A stretch of 33,721 bases of DNA, taken from contig PGYS01000019.1 of NCBI GenBank assembly GCA_002839795.1, positions 1 through 33,721 on the forward strand, read 5' to 3'. Origin of the DNA: Ignavibacteriae bacterium HGW-Ignavibacteriae-3 (GTDB taxonomy: Bacteria > Bacteroidota > Ignavibacteria > Ignavibacteriales > Melioribacteraceae). The notes beneath the pieces were generated by a model. That model saw only the letters and a list, made by a program, of their open reading frames with translations, searched no databases and was not told where the DNA came from. Every line of letters begins with the position of its first letter. Position 1 is the stretch's first letter. The position numbers and the translations under genes are program-made. Shown here piece by piece: positions 12,184-21,703 of the stretch.

Positions 12184-12229
12184 TTAATTGATATTTGATG
12201 CCGTTTTTCACAGATTTTTTATCAATTAA
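12184..12229. terminator. AT-rich inverted repeat after the DsrE-like gene
   Basis: TTAATTGATA (12184-12193) and TATCAATTAA (12220-12229) are perfect 10-base complements around a 26-nt interval. The right arm overlaps the stop codon of the DsrE-like gene. It could be a weak terminator or attenuator between this gene and the DUF302-like gene. There is no GC-rich stem, so the call is uncertain. Confidence 0.4.
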
Positions 12230-12717
12230 GTAAAAATTATTTGGGCTCCGGCAGATTTTTCATAGAACTGACCAACGGAAATTACCTCGTCCACTTCCGG
12301 GCAAAAATCTTTTTTTGTTAAGTGGAACATATCTACTGTTGCCTTGCAGCCGTAAATTTCGCATCCGGCATCGTGAATCATTGTTATGAATTCTCTTACC
12401 GGAGGAATGTCCAGAAGCTCCATTTCTTTTTTCATCATGGATGTGGCAAACCATGACATGCCGGGTATTGCACCCATCCATGTAGGCAAACCGGGTCCCA
12501 TTGCGCTTGGAACGCACATAGCGGGGTTTCCGACTGTTGCCACTTTTATTTTATCCATTTTTTTATCAATAATAGCGTGAAGTCCAAAAAACGTGAAAAA
12601 TAAAGTAGCTTCGATTCCTTCCATTCGCGCGCCATTAGCCATAATCAATCCGGGATAAATTCCCTCAAGCGATCCTTTTGATACTACTATAGATACTTTT
12701 TTGATCGGTTCTTCCAT
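12226..12717 (-). CDS. DsrE2-like sulfur-trafficking protein
   Basis: 163 residues, DsrE/DsrF fold. It has four cysteines at about 68, 119, 124 and 139. The pair in AGCEIYGCKATVDMF matches the place of the active Cys in DsrE2 proteins, which carry persulfide sulfur and pass it to TusA or DsrC. No membrane helix is convincing, although residues 35-50 are hydrophobic. GGAG nine bases upstream supports the ATG. It follows the DsrC-like gene with an 18-base gap. The adjacency of DsrE and DsrC is the classical cytoplasmic sulfur-relay arrangement. Which partner donates sulfur is not shown by the sequence. Confidence 0.85.
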   Translation of the reverse strand: MEEPIKKVSIVVSKGSLEGIYPGLIMANGARMEGIEATLFFTFFGLHAIIDKKMDKIKVATVGNPAMCVPSAMGPGLPTWMGAIPGMSWFATSMMKKEMELLDIPPVREFITMIHDAGCEIYGCKATVDMFHLTKKDFCPEVDEVISVGQFYEKSAGAQIIFT

Positions 12718-12735: not shown

Positions 12736-13050
12736 TTAAATACATCCTTTTGGTTTTGGTAATCCTGATATCCGCGCCGCTTTTTTCGCAGGTCCGCCCG
12801 GGAAAAGGGCATAGAGTTCTTTTGTGTCTACTCCGCTTTCCTTAGTCAGTTTTCTAATTGAAGGCGCATCTCCCTTGGCTTTAAATTCATTTCTCATATA
12901 ATTAATTACAGTCCAATGTCGGTCTGTTAAACTAATTCCTTCCTCGGTTGCCAATTCTTTAGCAATCTCTTCATTCCACTCATTCAGATTTGCCAAATTA
13001 CCGTCAGCATCCAGTTCCAGCATTATACCGGCATATTCTTTAGCTGCCAT
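12736..13050 (-). CDS. DsrC/TusE family sulfur-carrier protein with one tail cysteine
   Basis: 104 residues. The family core RHWTVINYMRNEF and the flexible C-terminal arm LFPGGPAKKAARISGLPKPKGCI are clear. The penultimate Cys103 (CysA) is kept, but the second tail cysteine (CysB), normally 11 residues earlier, is Ala92. It therefore cannot form the intramolecular trisulfide/disulfide used with DsrAB sulfite reductase. By this criterion it is TusE-like or a dedicated DsrC-like carrier. No dsrAB is in the window. GGAG is seven bases before the ATG. It sits between the DUF1641 and DsrE2-like genes on the same strand. Confidence 0.92.
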   Translation of the reverse strand: MAAKEYAGIMLELDADGNLANLNEWNEEIAKELATEEGISLTDRHWTVINYMRNEFKAKGDAPSIRKLTKESGVDTKELYALFPGGPAKKAARISGLPKPKGCI

Positions 13051-13063
13051 TATTATTCTCCTT

Positions 13064-13774
13064 CTAATTGATTGATTTGTTTAAAGGTTTGTTTTCCATA
13101 TGATTATTAGTCTCGGGATTAGCAATATTTTTCAGAAATTGAATTGCAAAACCGAGGCCCCTCTTTACTTCCGGTGTGTTTAATTCCTTCATCAGTTTAA
13201 ATATTGAGACGTCCTTACTGACTACAATATCCAGCTGCTTATAAACATTTAATGCGTTGTTGATTGTATGAAGCATATCAGGTTGTGTCAGATTTTTCAC
13301 AGTATTCAGAATTGTCACAATATTATCCCCCAAATTTTTAACGTCTTCCTTTGAAAAGGATGTAACAATATTATCCGTTACATTCGACAATTCTTTAGCA
13401 AATTCGAAGTAACCTTTTTTATCGTACTCGTCAAGCTTTTGCATAAAATCCATGATGGATTCCCGGACCAATGGAGAGACATCGGTGAGAAAATCCTTCA
13501 GACTTTCCAATTGCTCAACGCTTCTGTTGATTGTACTTACGTTTCTAAGAAGGTATTTGCCGAGATGAAGAATCTCTTTTGTGCTCACCTGATCATGAAC
13601 CTGCTCGAGTTCTACAATTGCAGTATCATATATATCTTTTCCAACTCTTAACAGATCATCCTTCAGATCTTCCATTTCCCGTCTGTGTCTTCTTTGAAGC
13701 TCAATTTCCTCAAGTATAACATCCAGTTTTTTATTAATCGACTCGATTTGCTGGTTGACTTTAATCTCTTCCAT
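13064..13774 (-). CDS. DUF1641 protein, likely partner of the adjacent flavoprotein
   Basis: 236 residues, almost all alpha-helical. Residues 1-60 are strongly coiled-coil-like and charged (INKKLDVILEEIELQRRHRREMEDLKDDLL). The DUF1641 signature is near the C terminus: LTQPDMLHTINNALNVYKQL and PEVKRGLGFAIQFLKNI. No catalytic residues are known for the family. The start lies one base after the stop of the SQR-like flavoprotein gene, with GAGG overlapping that stop region. DUF1641 genes are commonly found beside FAD oxidoreductases, so a complex is plausible. Confidence 0.8.
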   Translation of the reverse strand: MEEIKVNQQIESINKKLDVILEEIELQRRHRREMEDLKDDLLRVGKDIYDTAIVELEQVHDQVSTKEILHLGKYLLRNVSTINRSVEQLESLKDFLTDVSPLVRESIMDFMQKLDEYDKKGYFEFAKELSNVTDNIVTSFSKEDVKNLGDNIVTILNTVKNLTQPDMLHTINNALNVYKQLDIVVSKDVSIFKLMKELNTPEVKRGLGFAIQFLKNIANPETNNHMENKPLNKSIN

Positions 13775-13775
13775 A

Positions 13776-15005
13776 TTAAGCCCTCTTTCCTGCCATTGAC
13801 ATTTGTGATTCTATTGGCAGTTCTGTGCCCTTTAATAAAAAATTCCAGTACATCCATCTGAACATCACTTTACCGTAGTGATTCATTTTCGTTTCTTCAA
13901 GGAGTGAAAAAGGTCCTACACCGGGCAGCGGAAATTTTCCGGGCAACGGTTCGGTTTCATAATTGAAATCGATTAATATCCCTTTACCAAAACCGGATTC
14001 AATAAAGCAATTAGCGTGTCCGTCAAATTTTTCATGCGGATCCCGTCCTTCACTCACACTTATGATATTTTCAAGAAGTACATCGGCCTGAAAGTGGGCA
14101 ACGGAGCCGGCTTTGGAACTCGGCAGATCTGTTGCATCCCCTATGACAAAAATATTTTCGTACTCTAATGATCTGAGTGTTTCTTTGTCTGTTGGGACAA
14201 AATTGAGTTCATTACCCATACCGCTGCGTTCTATTACTTCATCGCCCATATTAGTCGGTATTGTCACAAGAACATCAAACTCAACTTCTTTCTCATCCCA
14301 GGAGATGATTTTTTTGCTTTCGTTTTCCACTCGGGCAATATTAAAATCCGTTGTCAGTTTGATATTTTTTTTATCGAGGAAATCCCCGAGAATTGACGAT
14401 GCCTTAGGTTTTGTAAAGGCGCCGGAAAGAGGAGTAACAAAATGAATATCAACTTTATCTCTAAGACCTCTCTCCGTAAAATACGAATCGGCGAGGAATA
14501 CGAATTCGAGAGGCGCTACCGGGCACTTTATCGGCATCTCGGTAATATTAAGCACGAGCTTTCCGCCTTTCCAATGTTTAAAGAAATCAGCTAACGCGCA
14601 TGCGCCTTCTATCGTATAAAAATCAAATATGCTTTTATGCCACAGTACATCATTCAGCCCTTCCGTCTCGGCGGGCTTTATCTTAGCCCCGGTAGCAATA
14701 ATAAGAAGGTCGTACGTCAGAACATTTTGGTTCTTCAGGATAACACGATTTTCTTTTGGTTCGATTTTTTCAATTTCAGACATAATTACATTTGCATCAG
14801 GCGGGAAAAAATCTCTTTTAGGTTTTATTACATCCTTCTTCTTGTAAATACCGAATGGGATAAATAAAAATCCGGGTTGGTAATAATGTGTTTCATGCTG
14901 ATCTACAATTGTTATTTGCCATTCAGATTTATCAAGAGAGGCGCTTAGTTTGTTCAGCATCATTGTACCGGCTGTTCCGGCACCCAGTATGAGTAGTTTT
15001 TTCAT
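13776..15005 (-). CDS. SQR-like FAD-dependent oxidoreductase
   Basis: 409 residues. N-terminal FAD-binding Rossmann motif LILGAGTAGT (5-14), second dinucleotide motif around LIIATGAKIKP, and FAD-ribityl motif IFVIGDATDLPSSKAG (285-300). The cysteines are Cys136, Cys161 (KCPVAP) and Cys333 (ANCFIESG). Cys161 and Cys333 fall where sulfide:quinone oxidoreductases hold their sulfur-bridging pair. The C terminus (NHYGKVMFRWMYWNFLLKG) is an amphipathic membrane-association segment. It probably oxidises a sulfide or persulfide and reduces quinone. The start at 15005 is chosen over 15041 because AGGG lies six bases before it and the glycine motif then begins at residue 8. Confidence 0.82.
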   Translation of the reverse strand: MKKLLILGAGTAGTMMLNKLSASLDKSEWQITIVDQHETHYYQPGFLFIPFGIYKKKDVIKPKRDFFPPDANVIMSEIEKIEPKENRVILKNQNVLTYDLLIIATGAKIKPAETEGLNDVLWHKSIFDFYTIEGACALADFFKHWKGGKLVLNITEMPIKCPVAPLEFVFLADSYFTERGLRDKVDIHFVTPLSGAFTKPKASSILGDFLDKKNIKLTTDFNIARVENESKKIISWDEKEVEFDVLVTIPTNMGDEVIERSGMGNELNFVPTDKETLRSLEYENIFVIGDATDLPSSKAGSVAHFQADVLLENIISVSEGRDPHEKFDGHANCFIESGFGKGILIDFNYETEPLPGKFPLPGVGPFSLLEETKMNHYGKVMFRWMYWNFLLKGTELPIESQMSMAGKRA

Positions 15006-15024
15006 TTTAATCCCTATTAATTTT

Positions 15025-15486
15025 TTATTTTGATGACCCAACTATTAGTTCTTTCAGTTTATCTTTAATGCTCTCGCAATTACCAAATGAGGAATAGACG
15101 TCGCAGTCCCTGCAGTTTTTGGATTCGCAGACGTTGTTTTTATGTTTCAACATCCAGCAAGGCTTTGAATATCCGGTATATGCTTTGCAGACTTTCCTTT
15201 CTTTAGCCGGACATTTTACAATACCCCAGCACGGGATTAGGGAAAGCAGTTTTCGAATTCCCTCAATGCCAATTTTATCCTCGTTTAATACTTTCCTGAT
15301 ACATCTTATTCTTTCAAGATCCTTATCGGAATAAAGTCTTTGATTGCTTTCTTTTTTGAAAGGAATTAATAATCCTTCCCGCTCATACATTCTTAATGTA
15401 TGGACCGAAATATGAAGCAATCTGGCTGCATTGCTTATGGTATAACTTGGGATAGATGACACATTAGTTAATTCTATTTTATTCAT
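15025..15486 (-). CDS. MerR-family regulator 1 with eight-Cys two-CW-like sensor domain
   Basis: 153 residues. Residues 14-80 are a MerR winged helix (YTISNAARLLHISVHTLRMYEREGLLIP ... NQRLYSDKDLERI). Residues 95-145 hold eight cysteines spaced C-x5-C-x7-C-x9-C-x9-C-x4-C-x2-C-x8-C, two of them in CW pairs. The pattern resembles the two-CW domain. It could hold one or two Fe-S clusters, Zn, or act as a thiol sensor; this is inference. It is a paralogue of the regulator at 21266-21703. Upstream it has the shared 27-bp dyad, suggesting autoregulation. It stands 20 bases before the SQR-like gene and probably controls that operon. Confidence 0.9.
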   Translation of the reverse strand: MNKIELTNVSSIPSYTISNAARLLHISVHTLRMYEREGLLIPFKKESNQRLYSDKDLERIRCIRKVLNEDKIGIEGIRKLLSLIPCWGIVKCPAKERKVCKAYTGYSKPCWMLKHKNNVCESKNCRDCDVYSSFGNCESIKDKLKELIVGSSK

Positions 15487-15704: not shown

Positions 15705-16370
15705 TTAACAGCCTTCCTTTTTCTTTTTTGCCTTGGGAGTTATATTTCCCGCCGGAGCTGTTAATTTCGGTAATTCCGGCATTTTGTTTTGTTGTAAGGC
15801 CAATGCGGTTGCACTGCCATCTGAAACTATCTGTGGAGTCCCGCCAAAATAAATTGAAACCTGTTTAACTTTTTCAAATTCCCTAATTTCTTCCGGTGTT
15901 GCTGCGGCAGATAATTTCGGGAAGAGAATTTCATTCTTCCATGCATCCATACCGCCGTTAAGAATATAAACAGCTTTGTAATTGCTGCTTTTCAGAATAA
16001 ACCACGCCTGAGCGGCTGCAATGTTATCATTTCCATAAAGCAGCACTTTTTGATTCCTCATCAGATCAGAACCAAGAAGATTTTCCATTTTTTTATTGAC
16101 TGATGAAGGAATGTTATATTCGTAAAAATCTTTCTCATTTCTAAGATCAACCAAAATAAAATCGGCCTTATCCTTTATTAGCCAATCGGCAAAAGTCTTT
16201 ACACTTATTTTATCCTGGTCTTTTACCGTTGAAAGAGCCATCTCTTTGGCGTTTACATAGATTTTATGCACGTCGTTTGGAGTTCCGATAAATATGGCCA
16301 ATACACCAAGGACCAAAGCGCTAATCGCCATTTTTTTGTTGGTGCTTAGATTCTTAAACCAATTTTTCAT
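15705..16370 (-). CDS. Membrane-anchored rhodanese-like protein lacking the catalytic Cys
   Basis: 221 residues. Residues 12-30 are one membrane helix, with a short Lys-rich N-terminal tail. Residues 55-150 have the rhodanese fold (ILVDLRNEKDFYEYNIPSSVN, KVLLYGNDNIAAAQAWFILK, AVYILNGGMDAWK). The active-site loop normally reads C-x5-R after the VLLY strand; here Gly113 replaces Cys. The only cysteine is the very last residue, Cys221, on a Pro/Lys-rich tail (KAKKKKEGC). So ordinary thiosulfate sulfurtransferase activity is not expected. It overlaps the YeeE-like gene by ATGA and has GAGG before its ATG. It may dock or hand over sulfur for the transporter pair. Confidence 0.85.
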   Translation of the reverse strand: MKNWFKNLSTNKKMAISALVLGVLAIFIGTPNDVHKIYVNAKEMALSTVKDQDKISVKTFADWLIKDKADFILVDLRNEKDFYEYNIPSSVNKKMENLLGSDLMRNQKVLLYGNDNIAAAQAWFILKSSNYKAVYILNGGMDAWKNEILFPKLSAAATPEEIREFEKVKQVSIYFGGTPQIVSDGSATALALQQNKMPELPKLTAPAGNITPKAKKKKEGC

Positions 16371-16969
16371 TCCACACCTCTGCCGTTTTTCTTCGCAAAG
16401 AATCTTTCACCCCATTCGGCAGCGGCGAACGCACCTAAAGCCATTAGAACAATCAGAAATACAAGCATACCCTGAGAGAGTCCGAAGAAATCAACGAGTG
16501 TTACTCTTCCCAGGTTGGTCGAATTGTAGAATCCTTCGAGGAGAGGAAACATTTCACCAAAAACTATGATTCCGAAGATAATTCCAGCAATGAAAACCAT
16601 ACCATCAGTTCTTCCGGTGGCGGCGGAAACAACGGAAGTGCCGGGACAGTAGCCGCCAATAACAAAACCCATTCCAAGCAATAATCCGCCGATGATCTGA
16701 GGCACGATGTAGGTATCACCGATATAAACGAGTGAAATGTCAAGCCAGCCTATCCAGGTAAAATAAAATAACCCGAGCATTGCGGTAACTATTGAGGTGA
16801 ACATTACTTTTAAGACTCGCATGTTATAAAAATAGAATTGTGCGGCAAGAATTCTTGCATTTCCGAATCCTCCCCGCTCAAGCGCAAAGCCGAATCCGAT
16901 ACCGATGATAAATGCCACCACCAGGCTAAAATCGAAACCGAAGTAATCAAATTTAAAATAGGGCATCAT
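16367..16969 (-). CDS. YeeE/YedE-family sulfur transporter, half 1
   Basis: 200 residues with about five membrane helices. Motifs RGGFGNAR near the N terminus and GGYCPGTS (Cys108) in the middle are those of YeeE/YedE (TsuA-like) proteins, which import thiosulfate or other sulfur-bearing ions through a Cys-lined path. It is half the size of full-length members and is followed by its partner half. The ATG at 16969 is preferred to 16975. It lies eight bases from GGAGG (16982-16978) and makes the classical ATGA overlap with the upstream stop. The alternative start leaves only two bases of spacing. Confidence 0.86.
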   Translation of the reverse strand: MMPYFKFDYFGFDFSLVVAFIIGIGFGFALERGGFGNARILAAQFYFYNMRVLKVMFTSIVTAMLGLFYFTWIGWLDISLVYIGDTYIVPQIIGGLLLGMGFVIGGYCPGTSVVSAATGRTDGMVFIAGIIFGIIVFGEMFPLLEGFYNSTNLGRVTLVDFFGLSQGMLVFLIVLMALGAFAAAEWGERFFAKKNGRGVE

Positions 16970-17520
16970 AACCATTGCCTCCTTACAAAATATGCAACTG
17001 CGTAACCACCGCCGAATACCGAGAGCATAAAAGCCCAGCCTCCAAGACTAAGCACTGCTCCACCTGTTAAGGCCAAACCGCTTGTGCATCCGCGTGCAAG
17101 TTTAGAGGCAAATCCCATCATCGCACCTCCGACAAAGGCATAAATCAATCTGGTTTTAACTGATACATTAGGGCCCTTTTCAGTAGTTCTTTTTATACGG
17201 TGTGCGAGAGCACCGGAAATAAATCCACCCACCAGAACACCTATTACTTCAAAGAGAAGCCAGTCTTTCAGCGGATTGCTTGTTCCATCGCCCAGATATT
17301 CACTATAAAAATTATTTTTGGCCGCATGTTCCGGTGCAATTTTTTCTACGCCTACTGCTACGACAGTTGATACTGCCCCGCTTGCCCCGAGTCCGCGTCC
17401 CATAACTAAAAAAGCCGCAAGCAGAATTAGGCCCAGACCGAATCCAACGAGGTAAGGATTCGAATATGGTTTCGGCTCGAATTCTTTTTCTCCACGCGAA
17501 TTTTCTTTTTTTGAATTCAT
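16966..17520 (-). CDS. YeeE/YedE-family sulfur transporter, half 2
   Basis: 184 residues. A charged N-terminal tail (1-20) precedes about four or five helices. The family motif KLARGCTSGLALTGGAVLS carries Cys145; a periplasmic-looking loop (about 60-88) follows helix 1. It forms the other half of a split YeeE pair with the downstream gene, coupled by ATGA. GGAG precedes the ATG. A 44-base gap separates it from the nrfD-like gene, so it probably belongs to the same transcript. The cargo is likely thiosulfate or a sulfane-sulfur species; the sequence does not tell which. Confidence 0.86.
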   Translation of the reverse strand: MNSKKENSRGEKEFEPKPYSNPYLVGFGLGLILLAAFLVMGRGLGASGAVSTVVAVGVEKIAPEHAAKNNFYSEYLGDGTSNPLKDWLLFEVIGVLVGGFISGALAHRIKRTTEKGPNVSVKTRLIYAFVGGAMMGFASKLARGCTSGLALTGGAVLSLGGWAFMLSVFGGGYAVAYFVRRQWL

Positions 17521-17564: not shown

Positions 17565-18512
17565 TCATCTGAAATAAGAATATAGATAATGACTATACTG
17601 CCCAGCAGATACAATGACAAATCTTAATATCAATCCTCCGGCGATTACCATGATCGGGGCGACTGCAGTATGTTTAATTTTATGATTGACAGCGAGCAAT
17701 TGAATTATGAGCGGAATTATAATTCCAATTCCGACAACAAATACCCAGAAAGGTGCTGTATACGGACCACCTAATAAAAGTGAAGCGGCCTGAATTTGCG
17801 CCTGTGAGGAGCTTGCAAGCCCAATCAGCATAAGCAGAATGACAATCAATTCTATAATTAAAAATCCATTATCCGCCTTTGCTAATAATTCTCTCTCGTT
17901 TACATTCTTAGCAATCATATGTACAAATGCCGCAGCAGTTGATAATCCCGAGATCAGAAACAAAACCCAGAGGATTGAACTATTCCATAATGGCCTCGAA
18001 CCCATAGTACTAAGTAAAACACCGGTATAGATGCCAAGTATGCCTCCGAAAAGCATATTCCCTATGCCGATATTTTGGATGAGACGCGGTCTCTCATTAA
18101 TATATTTAGTTATCATTTTAATCTGCTGAAAACGTTTCAGAATAAACGATGGGGGAACCATAAGCATATTGGCCAATATTACCGGGTATACAAGGATTAG
18201 AATCCATGCGCCCCAGGACATTGGAGATAAAATTTTAAATGTAGTGTACAACCTCCAGACAAACAGTTTATGTCCGAGATCCAAAAAAAGCGCTCCCATA
18301 CCAAGGCTTAATAATATGATGCTTATTAACGGGATGTAATTGGCGATACTATCAGAATTTTTATGTTTTTCTTTGAATAAAAAGTAACCTGCGATAATCA
18401 TCATCCCGGCCACCATTCCGCCTATAAATAGATAGACTGGAATTTCCCATTTCCACACAGCTAAAAACGGATCTATCTCAGGATTGTTGCGCGTAGTTGT
18501 AATTTCGTGCAT
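17565..18512 (-). CDS. NrfD/PsrC-type membrane subunit of the molybdoenzyme
   Basis: 315 residues with eight or nine hydrophobic segments. The start WKWEIPVYLFIGGMVAGMMI and the later LGHKLFVWRLYTTFKILSPMSWGAWILI are characteristic of NrfD/PsrC quinone-binding subunits. It would exchange electrons between the menaquinone pool and the ferredoxin subunit encoded 10 bases upstream. GGGAG stands six bases before the ATG. The order catalytic subunit, FeS subunit, NrfD is that of polysulfide and thiosulfate reductases (PsrABC, PhsABC). Confidence 0.88.
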   Translation of the reverse strand: MHEITTTRNNPEIDPFLAVWKWEIPVYLFIGGMVAGMMIIAGYFLFKEKHKNSDSIANYIPLISIILLSLGMGALFLDLGHKLFVWRLYTTFKILSPMSWGAWILILVYPVILANMLMVPPSFILKRFQQIKMITKYINERPRLIQNIGIGNMLFGGILGIYTGVLLSTMGSRPLWNSSILWVLFLISGLSTAAAFVHMIAKNVNERELLAKADNGFLIIELIVILLMLIGLASSSQAQIQAASLLLGGPYTAPFWVFVVGIGIIIPLIIQLLAVNHKIKHTAVAPIMVIAGGLILRFVIVSAGQYSHYLYSYFR

Positions 18513-18522
18513 ACGATTCTCC

Positions 18523-19062
18523 CTAGGCTAAATAGAAAATTCTTGGTGAAGTTCCCGCCTCAGGAATTAGCGGATGATTTTTTCTTGATGAAATCAATCT
18601 GCTGACTTCACTATTCGGATCATCAAAATCTCCAAAATGCATACAATGAGTCGGGCAGACATTTACGCACGCCGGCAATTTCCCATTCTCTACTCTATGA
18701 ATGCAGAAAGTACATTTATCCGCATAACCATCAGGATGAATGAATCTTGCACTATAAGGGCAGGCGGCAATACAAGCCTTGCACCCAATACACATGCTAT
18801 GCGTTACAAGAACAACAGCACCAACTTCATTAATGTGACTTGCACCGGTCGGACAGCACGCAACACACGGTGTATTATCGCAGTGGTTGCAGCGTTGAGA
18901 TTGAATTTCCAAATTAAGATCAGGATATTTTCCGTTAGTAATTGTAACTATCCAATCTCTGTTATGTCCTTCCGGAATATCATTTTCGGTTTTGCATGCT
19001 ACTACACAATCCATACATCCGACGCATTTTTTTGTATCTATGACCATTCCATATCTCGCCAT
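18523..19062 (-). CDS. 4Fe-4S ferredoxin-type electron-transfer subunit (PsrB/PhsB-like)
   Basis: 179 residues. Four cysteine groups are visible: CVGCMDCVVAC, CNHCDNTPCVACC, CIGCKACIAAC and CTFCIHRVENGKLPACVNVC. These are ligands for four [4Fe-4S] clusters, as in the B subunits of DMSO-reductase-family enzymes. It wires the molybdopterin subunit to the NrfD subunit. No own signal peptide is seen, so it would travel with the Tat-exported catalytic subunit. The ATG at 19062 (MARYGMVID) lies one base after the upstream stop; the in-frame TTG at 19080 would add six residues with no support. Confidence 0.92.
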   Translation of the reverse strand: MARYGMVIDTKKCVGCMDCVVACKTENDIPEGHNRDWIVTITNGKYPDLNLEIQSQRCNHCDNTPCVACCPTGASHINEVGAVVLVTHSMCIGCKACIAACPYSARFIHPDGYADKCTFCIHRVENGKLPACVNVCPTHCMHFGDFDDPNSEVSRLISSRKNHPLIPEAGTSPRIFYLA

Positions 19063-19063
19063 A

Positions 19064-21265
19064 TTACACCCCGGTCTCAAAAGTTACAAAGTTCACATTC
19101 ATTCCGGTTCCGCCCATAAGAGGATCGACTGCATATTTAGTGATCAATCCGGAGTCGCTTGCGCCCCTGCCGAATGCCCCTTTCAGCATTTTGCTTTTAT
19201 GACCAAATCCGTGAATCATGTATACGCAGTCTGTTCTTATACGTTCGGTTACTTTCACTTTTATTTTATTGCTCACTATCCCATCCTGATTTTTTAAACG
19301 GACAATCTGAGAATTCTTTAATCCCCATTTTTTCGCCACATCCTGATTGACCCAGACTTCATTTTCATCCATCATATCCATGAGAATCCTGTTGGACTGA
19401 GTCCGGCTGAAAGAATGAACGGGGGAACGTCCGAACAATAATCTGTAATATCCTCCCGGCGGCTGTTGCGGCCTGGTATACTTCGGAACAGCGTCGAACC
19501 CTGCCTGTTGAAGCTGGATTGAATAAAACTCGATTTTGCCGGAAGCTGTAAAAAACTCCGGTTGAATTCCTTCCTCAAAATATATCGGCCGTTTCTGACC
19601 GAGGATGATCCCCTCTTTTTTAAGTTGACTTAAACTCAGACCGCCGGCATTTAATCTATGGTTCAAATAGTCTTCAATATGATTCCATGGATAGTAATTT
19701 CCGAGTCCTAATTTCTCAGCCAGTTTTTTTGCTATCCACCAGTTTGGTTTTTGATCTGACGGTGATTCAATTACAGGCTGGCGTATACCAACGAACGGTT
19801 CCTTGAAAGAGGACATATGAAGATCATCGTAACGTTCAAGATAAACGGATTCCGGAAGTACAACATCGGCGTAACCTGCAATCTCGCTAGGAATTACATC
19901 GACCACGACCATAAGATCCAGGTTTTGAATTGCCCTAATTGTTTCTTCCTCATTTGGAAGAGCCTGCATTAAATTAGTGGCGTAAACGAACCATCCTTTA
20001 ATCGGGTAAGGACTTCCGCTAATTGTTGCTTCTCGTATTCCGGTTGTAAGTTCCTCCGAAGCGAAGGGATATTTCTTACCGGGATTATCAAGTTTTTCTT
20101 TAGTTGGAACAGGATAAGGGGGATAAGGATAACCCGGCAATGAAAAACTGACCGGGTAGAAGAAACCGCCTTTGCGGCCCCAGCTTCCCAACAGCGCATT
20201 TAATAGTGCTATGGCCCTGCTGCGCTGAGCATCATCTCCATACCATGTTGTATGCCTGCCGGGATGCACAAGTGTTGCCGGTTTGTACATTGTCATTTCA
20301 CGGGCAGTGAGACGAATCAATTCGGGATCTATTCCCGTTTCAGGATATGCCCACTCTGGCGTGAAGTTAGAAATTTCAGCGGCAAACTGTTCAAAACCAA
20401 ATCCATAGCTTGTGACATAATCAATATCATATAATTTCTCAGAGACAATCACATTCATCCACGCGAGAAGAAGAGCCAGGTCGGTACCCGGTTTGATCGG
20501 TAAATAGTATTTTGCCTTTGAGGCTGCTACTGAAAAACGCGGATCAACAACGATGATGGATGCATTATTCCCGACTGCCTTTGCAAATTCCTGAGCCTGT
20601 GAATTGTGCATATTTTCTCCGAGATGAGAACCGATTAGCACCAGACATTTTGAATTTTCAATATCGGTTCTTTCAGGTGAACCAATCGACTCCCCAAAAG
20701 TCAGTTCAAAACCCACATCACGCGGACCGCGGCATTGTGCGAATGAAGGGGCCGCAAAATTAATTGCACCATAAGCTTTCAATGTATGCTTTATAAAATT
20801 TCCCCCGATTCCATGAGAAAAAGATGCAAGAGATTCCGGTCCGTATCGTGATTTAATGATTTTCATTTTATCAGCTATATAATCGAGAGCCTCCTCCCAC
20901 GTTACTTCCTTCCAAACTTCATCACCACGTTCGCGTGTTCTTATCAAAGGAGATCTTAATCTGTCAGGATCCTTCACTGCGCCAACACCGCCCGTTCCAC
21001 GGGGACATAACCTCCCCTTACTCAATGGATCTTTAGGGTGGCCCTCTACTTTCCATAATTCTCCATCTTTCAGATACGCAATTGCTCCGCATTTCCAGAA
21101 ACAGATATCGCAGTACGTAGGAATGGTCTGAATTCCCTTAACTTTTTCTTTATTAATTTTTTTTGCCCCTTTGATCATCGGACTTAGTGCCGTAGCCGCC
21201 GCGGCTGCACCAACAGAAAACCCGGTGATTTTGAGGAACTTCCTTCGAGAAATACTATTCATCAT
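19064..21265 (-). CDS. Tat-exported molybdopterin oxidoreductase, polysulfide/thiosulfate reductase-like
   Basis: 733 residues. A twin-arginine signal (SRRKFLK, residues 6-12) is followed by an Ala-rich hydrophobic stretch. An N-terminal [4Fe-4S] site has C52-x2-C55-x3-C59-x27-C87. Cys178 in PSFAQCRGPRD is placed as the Mo ligand. The C-terminal dinucleotide-binding domain starts near VWVNQDVAKKWGL. The length fits PsrA/PhsA (about 750), not the much larger TtrA or SoeA. It probably reduces polysulfide or thiosulfate in the periplasm with quinol electrons; the reverse direction cannot be excluded. The ATG at 21262 has better spacing from AAGG than the one at 21265. It starts directly after the MerR 2 stop. 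Confidence 0.87.
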   Translation of the reverse strand: MMNSISRRKFLKITGFSVGAAAAATALSPMIKGAKKINKEKVKGIQTIPTYCDICFWKCGAIAYLKDGELWKVEGHPKDPLSKGRLCPRGTGGVGAVKDPDRLRSPLIRTRERGDEVWKEVTWEEALDYIADKMKIIKSRYGPESLASFSHGIGGNFIKHTLKAYGAINFAAPSFAQCRGPRDVGFELTFGESIGSPERTDIENSKCLVLIGSHLGENMHNSQAQEFAKAVGNNASIIVVDPRFSVAASKAKYYLPIKPGTDLALLLAWMNVIVSEKLYDIDYVTSYGFGFEQFAAEISNFTPEWAYPETGIDPELIRLTAREMTMYKPATLVHPGRHTTWYGDDAQRSRAIALLNALLGSWGRKGGFFYPVSFSLPGYPYPPYPVPTKEKLDNPGKKYPFASEELTTGIREATISGSPYPIKGWFVYATNLMQALPNEEETIRAIQNLDLMVVVDVIPSEIAGYADVVLPESVYLERYDDLHMSSFKEPFVGIRQPVIESPSDQKPNWWIAKKLAEKLGLGNYYPWNHIEDYLNHRLNAGGLSLSQLKKEGIILGQKRPIYFEEGIQPEFFTASGKIEFYSIQLQQAGFDAVPKYTRPQQPPGGYYRLLFGRSPVHSFSRTQSNRILMDMMDENEVWVNQDVAKKWGLKNSQIVRLKNQDGIVSNKIKVKVTERIRTDCVYMIHGFGHKSKMLKGAFGRGASDSGLITKYAVDPLMGGTGMNVNFVTFETGV

Positions 21266-21703
21266 TTACCTTGAGACAGATTTTATTAATTCTTTAATGG
21301 TACCGCATTGAGAATATTTTGTATAAACTTCACAAGTCCTGCAATCTCTTTCTTTACATACATTTTTATGATCATAAGTCCAGCAAGGATTGTGTGCGCC
21401 GTTAAATGAAGCGCACTCCTTTTGCTCCTCAGCGGAACACTTTATAATATCCCAGCATGGAATTAAAGAGTAGATTGATTTAATCCCGTTTATGCTGATC
21501 TTTGCCTGATTGATGGCGTCACGTATGCATTGTATTCTATCAAGATCAGCTTGAGAGTAGAGACGCTGGTTGGATTTTTTTTTGTAAGGAATAATTAAGC
21601 CTTCCCTTTCGTACATCCGAAGAGTATGAACGGAAATTTTAAGAAGCCTTGCGGCAGTGCTTATCGAAAAGACTGGTTCAGTTTTCTTGATACTCGGGTT
21701 CAT
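21266..21703 (-). CDS. MerR-family regulator 2 with eight-Cys two-CW-like sensor domain
   Basis: 145 residues. MerR winged helix at about 12-75 (FSISTAARLLKISVHTLRMYEREGLIIP ... NQRLYSQADLDRI). The tail at about 90-137 carries eight cysteines spaced C-x5-C-x7-C-x9-C-x8-C-x4-C-x2-C-x8-C. That is the same pattern as regulator 1 except one residue less in the fourth gap. The two proteins are close paralogues. Its gene is directly joined to the molybdoenzyme gene, so it likely controls the reductase operon and its own expression through the dyad at 21714-21740. The effector is unknown: sulfane sulfur, redox or oxygen acting on Cys or Fe-S are candidates. Confidence 0.9.
   Translation of the reverse strand: MNPSIKKTEPVFSISTAARLLKISVHTLRMYEREGLIIPYKKKSNQRLYSQADLDRIQCIRDAINQAKISINGIKSIYSLIPCWDIIKCSAEEQKECASFNGAHNPCWTYDHKNVCKERDCRTCEVYTKYSQCGTIKELIKSVSR

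Follow-up and report, generated by a model that had tools for sequence, protein, structure and literature searches.

The rhodanese fold, the split YeeE importer and arm-type sulfur carriers are each known. In the Sud protein of Wolinella, polysulfide is bound by a cysteine in a loop. According to the available text of the respective reports, SoxY binds sulfur at the cysteine of its C-terminal GGCGG motif (PMC6067878), DsrC/TusE relays sulfur by a conserved cysteine on a flexible C-terminal arm (PMC3397948), and a secreted rhodanese in a Psr operon has already been found (PMC12142623). The split importer YedE1E2 is described as importing zero-valent sulfur and as requiring its two cysteines (PMC10812762). 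For the YeeE-like SoxT importers the passage of sulfur from a SoxY cysteine to a SoxT cysteine has been called conceivable, and direct cysteine-to-cysteine transfer through the SoxT pore, in which the cysteines lie ~7 Å apart, questionable; in a sulfur oxidiser with such importers sulfane sulfur is stated, in the same text, to reach the cytoplasm "by unknown means" (PMC11582611).

Here we describe a rhodanese-like protein encoded next to a split YeeE importer on contig PGYS01000019.1 of Ignavibacteriae bacterium HGW-Ignavibacteriae-3; the stretch analysed, hereafter the window, comprises 33,721 nucleotides. The protein has lost the loop cysteine and carries a single cysteine as its last residue. 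Within the full-text literature, outside which most subscription papers lie and which therefore makes for a weak absence, no description was found of a terminal-cysteine rhodanese lacking the loop cysteine, nor, with the same reservation, of a YeeE1-rhodanese fusion with a cysteine tail.

Results

A rhodanese domain without loop cysteine and with a terminal-cysteine arm

The gene, identified by its open reading frame, Pfam and alignment, lies on the reverse strand at 15705..16370, runs from an ATG start to a TAA stop and encodes a membrane-anchored dead rhodanese of 221 aa. The sole Pfam domain over its cut-off is Rhodanese PF00581 at residues 61-147 (15930..16190; E 2.5e-13, 50.8 bits against a cut-off of 22.2). 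A transmembrane anchor is predicted at residues 14-30 (16281..16331; mean hydropathy 2.42, AlphaFold2 helix 10-29) and is oriented by charge with the N terminus inside and the C terminus outside, the net charge being +4 on its N-terminal flank and 0 over the next 15 residues. An earlier note on this DNA had reported a dead active site and a lone cysteine on a mobile tail. The catalytic cysteine of the CxxGxR-type loop is indeed absent, the alignment of 49 homologues placing Gly113 (16032..16034) at its position, and the translation shows that Cys221, the last residue, is the only cysteine of the protein. It closes a flexible Lys/Pro-rich arm (residues 186-221, 15708..15815) whose final residues are KKKKEGC, the terminal Gly-Cys codons occupying 15708..15713.

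An AlphaFold2 model built from a 12-row alignment had a mean pLDDT of 75.8 (a 3-row alignment gave a poor model, mean pLDDT 39.7), with block means of 83-95 in the core between residues 51 and 180. In the tail, residues 186-221, pLDDT falls below 50, so that this part is probably disordered, in line with the mobility ascribed to it. The model resembles the solved rhodaneses 6mxv, 3ilm, GlpE, YgaP and Sud, the best structural match having a Z of 14.4 and an rmsd of 1.8 over 103 residues; in Foldseek 6mxv took rank 1 and Sud (1qxn) rank 44 (E 1.6e-4).

The other rhodaneses of the host genome, which account for five Pfam matches in four open reading frames, keep the CxxG loop and have no cysteine end, the C-terminal end of one (L001) being uncertain as it carries an in-frame TAG. 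When the host genome was searched for DNA encoding KKxGC followed by TAA or TGA, the pattern was in frame solely in the 15705-16370 gene; the one other match (C142) is out of frame in the Lys-rich tail of another gene, and a general C-terminal tag was rejected on this count.

Conservation of the terminal cysteine among homologues

Searches with the rhodanese gave matches in 33 of 96 genomes (relatives and the host) and in 31 of 395 genomes of the phylum, the latter set overlapping the former. Forty-nine proteins were aligned, not all of which are independent (L065, L116 and L117 are close). Left out were L035, an interrupted gene; L066, which had a mis-picked start and whose place was taken by L116, found in that genome too; L036 together with weak matches in genomes G066, G020 and G007, all lying in open frames 395-404 aa long, those of G066 and G020 being YeeE1-rhodanese fusions in the transporter-side survey described below; a weak second match in G027; and L037 and L038, which denote genes already entered as L009 and L008. 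Realignment of 40 of the 49 showed the 39 others to be 25-66% identical to the window protein.

The earlier note had made its proposal depend on conservation of the final cysteine. No homologue has lost it: cysteine is the last residue in 49/49 proteins, and the residue before it is glycine in 48/49. At position 113 serine is found in 28 proteins, glycine in 13, alanine in four, and cysteine and aspartate in two each, the two with cysteine (L019 and L023) being of the same genus. The linker is weakly conserved (mean conservation 0.36 for residues 186-219 against 0.56 for residues 50-185), and the last two residues therefore stand out. Its length varies as well, with 33-50 residues from the FGG motif to the C terminus across the 49 homologues. 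The terminal cysteine is the protein's sole cysteine in 38/49. Its codon is TGT in 30 and TGC in 16 of the 46 genes read, and all four glycine codons are used before it; with varied codons and a cysteine end in all 49, chance or an assembly artefact was rejected. At the level of the aligned sequences, the loop cysteine has been lost while the terminal cysteine is invariant.

Operon and neighbouring genes

All of the neighbouring genes discussed here are, like the rhodanese gene, on the reverse strand. The cassette is headed by a MerR-type regulator (21266..21703, found in the neighbour-locus search), followed by a PhsA/PsrA-like molybdopterin enzyme with a twin-arginine (SRRKFLK) start (19064..21265; best NCBIfam match PhsA, 500.8 bits, below the cut-off of 694) and, as assigned by profiles, a 4Fe-4S PsrB-like subunit (18523..19080) and an NrfD/PsrC-like membrane subunit (17565..18512). 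Next come the PmpA-type YeeE half 2 (YeeE2; 16966..17520, profiles and alignment), with its cysteine in RGCTSG, and the PmpB/YedE-type YeeE half 1 (YeeE1; 16367..16975, profiles), whose cysteine in GGYCPGTS is invariant in a 16-row alignment. This order, from MerR to the rhodanese, is also that of the usual cassette among the homologous loci. Of 51 YeeE1 copies 49 have the motif CPGTS and two have CPGTG or CPGTC in its place, and the YeeE2 motif is RGCTSG in 44/49 copies, the other five keeping the cysteine with a changed neighbour.

Downstream of the rhodanese gene lie a second MerR-type regulator (15025..15486, Pfam), a type III sulfide:quinone reductase (13776..15041; NF049943, 664.7 bits against a cut-off of 525), a DsrC/TusE protein (12736..13050, profiles) and a DsrE2-like sulfur carrier (12226..12717; NF047629 at 109.7 bits, below the cut-off of 210, with Pfam DrsE_2 over its cut-off), the last two being possible cytoplasmic acceptors. 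The sulfide:quinone reductase passes the cut-off of the NCBIfam "type III, selenoprotein subtype" yet has no in-frame stop. Between it and the DsrC gene lies a 236-aa protein with a DUF1641 match (13064-13774), and L070, L090 and L091 have matches arranged likewise. The DsrC/TusE protein has a single cysteine and ends in KPKGCI, the cysteine being penultimate as is usual for DsrC/TusE. The window thus encodes two proteins with a Lys-bearing C-terminal cysteine arm, of which DsrC/TusE is probably cytoplasmic, judging by its family, and the rhodanese probably periplasmic. The TusA/YeeD domain (PF01206) has no match in the host genome at E 0.001; 11/14 control genomes do match.

That a YeeE pair adjoins the rhodanese, as had been noticed earlier, extends well beyond the window. 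In 48 of the 49 fetched loci, which were chosen by their rhodanese hits, YeeE1 is in contact with the rhodanese gene: it lies directly upstream in 47 and is fused in one (L079). The remaining locus, L113, has the rhodanese beside NrfD and no YeeE hit in 8.5 kb; its Psr genes and arm-bearing rhodanese lie at 10-1314, with a further 212-aa open reading frame after them. A molybdoenzyme hit was found near the rhodanese in 41/49 loci. The 14-kb loci L107, L108, L109, L111 and L112 contain YeeE2, YeeE1 and the rhodanese and gave no Psr hit; the stretches fetched for the three others without molybdoenzyme hit, L090, L092 and L115, were shorter (3.4-10.5 kb). One locus, L181, carries a second rhodanese in tandem (201-809) which ends in KKPEGGC, i.e., two arms on the same scaffold in one operon. 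In L035 / L163 (G070), a single-contig genome, the rhodanese gene is frameshifted and may be a pseudogene.

Survey from the transporter side

A search with a YeeE1 profile identified 71 places in 63/296 genomes. A gap between 109 and 189 bits was visible and a line was then set at 180 bits; since this line is post hoc and the profile was built from arm-linked YeeE1, the resulting count, 53/71 places above the line with a cysteine tail encoded at all 53, is less than fully independent. The rhodanese searches had already found 27 of these places. In the 26 new ones the cysteine is always within the last four residues and in 21 it is the last. At one place, L163 (G070), the gene is frameshifted and the 3' remainder encodes KKKKREGC in another frame.

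The 53 places divide into 28 with separate genes, such as L170 and L171, both ending in KKKKKEGC, and 25 where YeeE1 and the rhodanese form a single polypeptide of 394-521 aa with YeeE1 in front. The rhodanese profile matches 24/25 fusions, and L205, which has no such hit, was counted as a fusion by length and alignment. All 25 have a terminal or penultimate cysteine, the ends being GGC, GGCT, GGCS, GGCA, GGCG and LCS, and no cysteine was seen by eye at the loop position in their alignment. In 24/25 fusion loci (fetched stretches of 4.3-7 kb) YeeE2 is present and the molybdoenzyme, Fer4 and NrfD gave no hit, which indicates that it is the YeeE pair that is the constant partner.

Next to the 18 generic, low-scoring YeeE halves no adjacent open reading frame ends in cysteine (0/18), and three (L210, L211 and L221) have a cysteine in the last four residues; that of L221 is 63 aa long. 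In L210 and L211 the generic half is followed by a permease of 360-383 aa, presumably ACR3-like, which ends in DICP or DVCP with a penultimate cysteine. As background, among other predicted genes of at least 100 aa around the YeeE1 places (n = 266) one ends in cysteine and two have cysteine in the last three residues. A 236-aa gene in L216 (5358-6065), a few kb from a generic YeeE half, ends in APKKKDVKC and is possibly a further Lys-rich tail with terminal cysteine.

Distribution in other phyla and on plasmids

In Gemmatimonadota there were 16 rhodanese matches in 15/249 genomes, all with a YeeE1 hit adjacent or in frame. Cysteine is within the last three residues in 15/16 and the 16th leaves its contig; the tails include RRRGC, KKRSC, RRRTC, RRRNTC, KKKKKEGC, GGCGW and SGGCG. 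The plasmid search returned three records, of which that of Gemmatirosa kalamazoonensis is a relative, ending in RRRGC with a YeeE pair adjacent. Of 12 matches in 11/398 Pseudomonadota genomes, one (L144) is in one frame with YeeE1 and ends in ASGGCA. For the other 11 the short flanks yielded no YeeE hit, and a terminal cysteine is lacking in all of them; ten have an internal cysteine and the other has in-frame stops. A membrane rhodanese of Candidatus Woesebacteria (L045, 4695-5897) keeps the loop cysteine and ends in GGGCGA, possibly an independent C-terminal cysteine arm.

Similar tails on other scaffolds

A second type of operon was found in 6/146 genomes. It is composed, in this order, of a molybdoenzyme (778-786 aa), a 4Fe-4S protein, a YeeE2 fusion, YeeE1 and a membrane peptide of 88-130 aa without rhodanese hit. 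YeeE2 is fused behind a cytochrome-b-like part (e.g., L231 2594-4066 and L086 6585-8063), and a TorD-like gene stands in front in five operons and a MerR gene in three, the rest being contig-cut or unlabelled; TorD-like and cytochrome-b-like are names read from the sequences. All six molybdoenzymes end in -EGC and all six peptides in -DEGC. Genomes G075 and G079, noticed through the tail, encode a 782-aa molybdoenzyme ending in ASAIKEGC and, in the same operon, a distant rhodanese ending in ATIKEGC or AAIKEGC. Among first-type molybdoenzymes 0/41 end in cysteine.

The tail, present on a peptide without rhodanese, is thus a unit retained even where the rhodanese is absent, and the reversal of its charge in second-type operons means that the basic run itself is not essential. 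The sign of the charge agrees between both tails in 8/8 two-arm operons (six acidic, two basic), these eight being few and related, with three genomes sharing genus g17 and two g53. In G027 the first-type rhodanese has a basic tail (KRKREGC) and both second-type tails are acidic; in that genome, therefore, the tails match by operon and not by genome.

Side of the membrane

Across the 49 proteins the mean net charge is +2.9 before the helix and +0.2 after it, being higher before than after in 47 and equal in two, and from this bias the tail is predicted to lie outside. The molybdoenzymes with a similar tail begin with what we take to be a twin-arginine motif, and the fusions have a basic-looking linker joining YeeE1 to the additional helix. 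The charge rule is indecisive for the small peptides, L093/L231 looking by eye more basic after the helix. Charge thus supports a periplasmic arm, as a prediction from sequence.

Discussion

A probable carrier arm for the importer

We consider it rather probable that the protein serves a YeeE-type sulfur importer as a swinging-arm carrier of sulfur in the periplasm, with the rhodanese domain as its scaffold. A terminal cysteine kept in the relatives examined, beside the importer or fused to it, points to a tail that passes sulfur on to the importer. The N-terminal helix would be the anchor in the cytoplasmic membrane; the rhodanese domain, its catalysis lost, would serve as scaffold or docking body, and a disordered, mostly basic arm of ~35-45 residues would end in the free Gly-Cys. 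The terminal thiol would load sulfane sulfur as a persulfide or thiosulfonate, drawing on polysulfide or thiosulfate in the periplasm or on the PsrA/PhsA-like molybdoenzyme encoded nearby, and would present it to the YeeE1/YeeE2 pore, through which sulfur would enter the cytoplasm to meet acceptors of the DsrE2/DsrC type. The reading is in keeping with zero-valent sulfur import by split YedE1E2 (PMC10812762), with sulfur binding at the SoxY cysteine (PMC6067878), with the conceivable passage from SoxY to SoxT (PMC11582611) and with the lack of a TusA/YeeD match in the host genome. Against it stand locus L113 with no YeeE hit, the cysteines at position 113 in L019 and L023, the indecisive side of the small peptides, the incomplete independence of the transporter-side count, and the doubt, on grounds of distance, about direct cysteine-to-cysteine transfer in the SoxT pore (PMC11582611). 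A further point against it is that the two YedE1E2 proteins sufficed for import of zero-valent sulfur in E. coli, no arm protein being named in the available part of that report (PMC10812762).

The earlier note had offered two options, either that the sulfur-carrying thiol had moved from the loop to a mobile tail or that the protein only docks sulfur carriers at the membrane. The relocation is strongly supported by the sequences, i.e., by the loss of the loop cysteine, the invariance of the terminal one, the predicted disorder of the tail and a similar tail on a peptide without rhodanese; that the thiol carries sulfur is a step that we infer. The docking platform is disfavoured, since a platform would need no invariant thiol at its end.

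Alternative explanations

The best of the alternatives, though in our view an unlikely one, is a Sud-like respiratory carrier, in which the arm supplies the PsrA-like molybdoenzyme with sulfur from polysulfide, to be reduced there, and YeeE is merely co-regulated. It would account for the molybdoenzyme hits near the rhodanese in 41/49 loci, for L113 with its Psr genes, rhodanese and no YeeE hit, and for the similar tail on eight molybdoenzymes; moreover, Wolinella Sud is itself a rhodanese-fold protein (PDB 1qxn) and, in the accessible text, a sulfurtransferase of the periplasm to which a polysulfide chain can bind (PMC3397948). It fits poorly with 24/25 fusions and loci L107, L108, L109, L111 and L112, where YeeE2, YeeE1 and the arm occur with no Psr hits in the fetched stretch, with the physical fusion of the arm to YeeE1 at 25 places, and with the lack of a cysteine end in all 41 first-type molybdoenzymes.

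Less probable still is a structural or redox thiol, which would form an intermolecular disulfide (for dimerisation or as a tether to YeeE) or sense redox state and carry no sulfur. A lone extracytoplasmic cysteine is prone to mixed disulfides, and 38/49 proteins have no other cysteine. The fusions, however, are already tethered to YeeE1 and still keep the cysteine in 25/25 cases, and a structural disulfide would hardly need a thiol placed terminally on a linker that is long and variable. That the end residues are a C-terminal processing or anchoring tag, a signal for lipid attachment, protease or sorting unrelated to sulfur, is very improbable: the last position does recur on several scaffolds, tails having been looked for almost only in YeeE operons, but no other in-frame KKxGC-stop (TAA, TGA) occurs in the host genome, most carriers found are already membrane-held, and in the variants GGCT, GGCS, GGCA, GGCG, GGCGW and LCS the chain runs on for one or two residues past the cysteine.

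A possible modular hand-over device

Beyond the carrier reading itself we put forward, tentatively and at somewhat less than even chances, that the terminal Gly-Cys arm is a modular, scaffold-independent device for sulfur hand-over at the membrane, placed on a dead rhodanese, a YeeE half, a molybdoenzyme or a bare membrane peptide, with tail chemistry matched per operon; sulfur would then stay covalently bound, and never be released, as it moves from the arm of the enzyme to that of the carrier and on to a pore cysteine. An enzyme fold has here been kept after loss of its catalytic residue with a mobile thiol retained, and a similar arm is common to unrelated proteins of one operon. With an invariant C-terminal thiol that is fused to an importer half in 25/53 places, sulfur presentation could be tested by changing one residue.

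Comparison with known systems

The likeness to the DsrC swinging arm, drawn in the earlier note, holds for the mechanism only. Both have a conserved cysteine on a flexible C-terminal arm, but DsrC/TusE is cytoplasmic, has another fold (PF04358, for which Pfam gave no match in the window rhodanese) and a penultimate cysteine, whereas that of the window rhodanese is last. The periplasmic GGCGG arm of SoxY is the closer analogue: SoxY is a periplasmic carrier with a sulfur-binding cysteine near its C terminus, and several relatives described here end in GGC, GGCG or GGCGW. The window protein itself ends in EGC. It differs from SoxY in its rhodanese fold, its membrane anchor and its place beside YeeE; the SoxY domain PF13501 has no match in it (Pfam, E 0.01). 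In 92 genomes no SoxY was over the cut-off, with one weak match below it, a search for which 14 control genomes gave no positive control.

With Sud of Wolinella and the single-domain rhodaneses the window protein shares the fold, and Psr genes are adjacent in many loci and were not seen in others. It differs in having no loop cysteine, a thiol on the tail and one membrane helix, the topology being predicted from charge. A YeeE partner of the YeeD/TusA type is a different protein, the TusA domain PF01206 being unmatched by the window protein. The window YeeE pair resembles YedE1E2/PmpAB, as far as these are described in the available text, in being two short halves with one conserved cysteine each (PMC10812762, PMC11582611), and differs from the 18 generic halves, whose next open reading frame in no case ends in cysteine, in having a cysteine-tailed protein encoded beside YeeE1. 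In Hyphomicrobium, SoxT1A stands next to a DsbA-like thioredoxin whose extreme C terminus bears a CxxC (PMC11582611). By that description a thiol protein of the periplasm, with cysteines at its C terminus, here too accompanies an importer of the YeeE family, but it is of thioredoxin type and has two CxxC motifs. By its likely function we place the window protein among the arm-type sulfur carriers, outside the SoxY, DsrC and Sud families.
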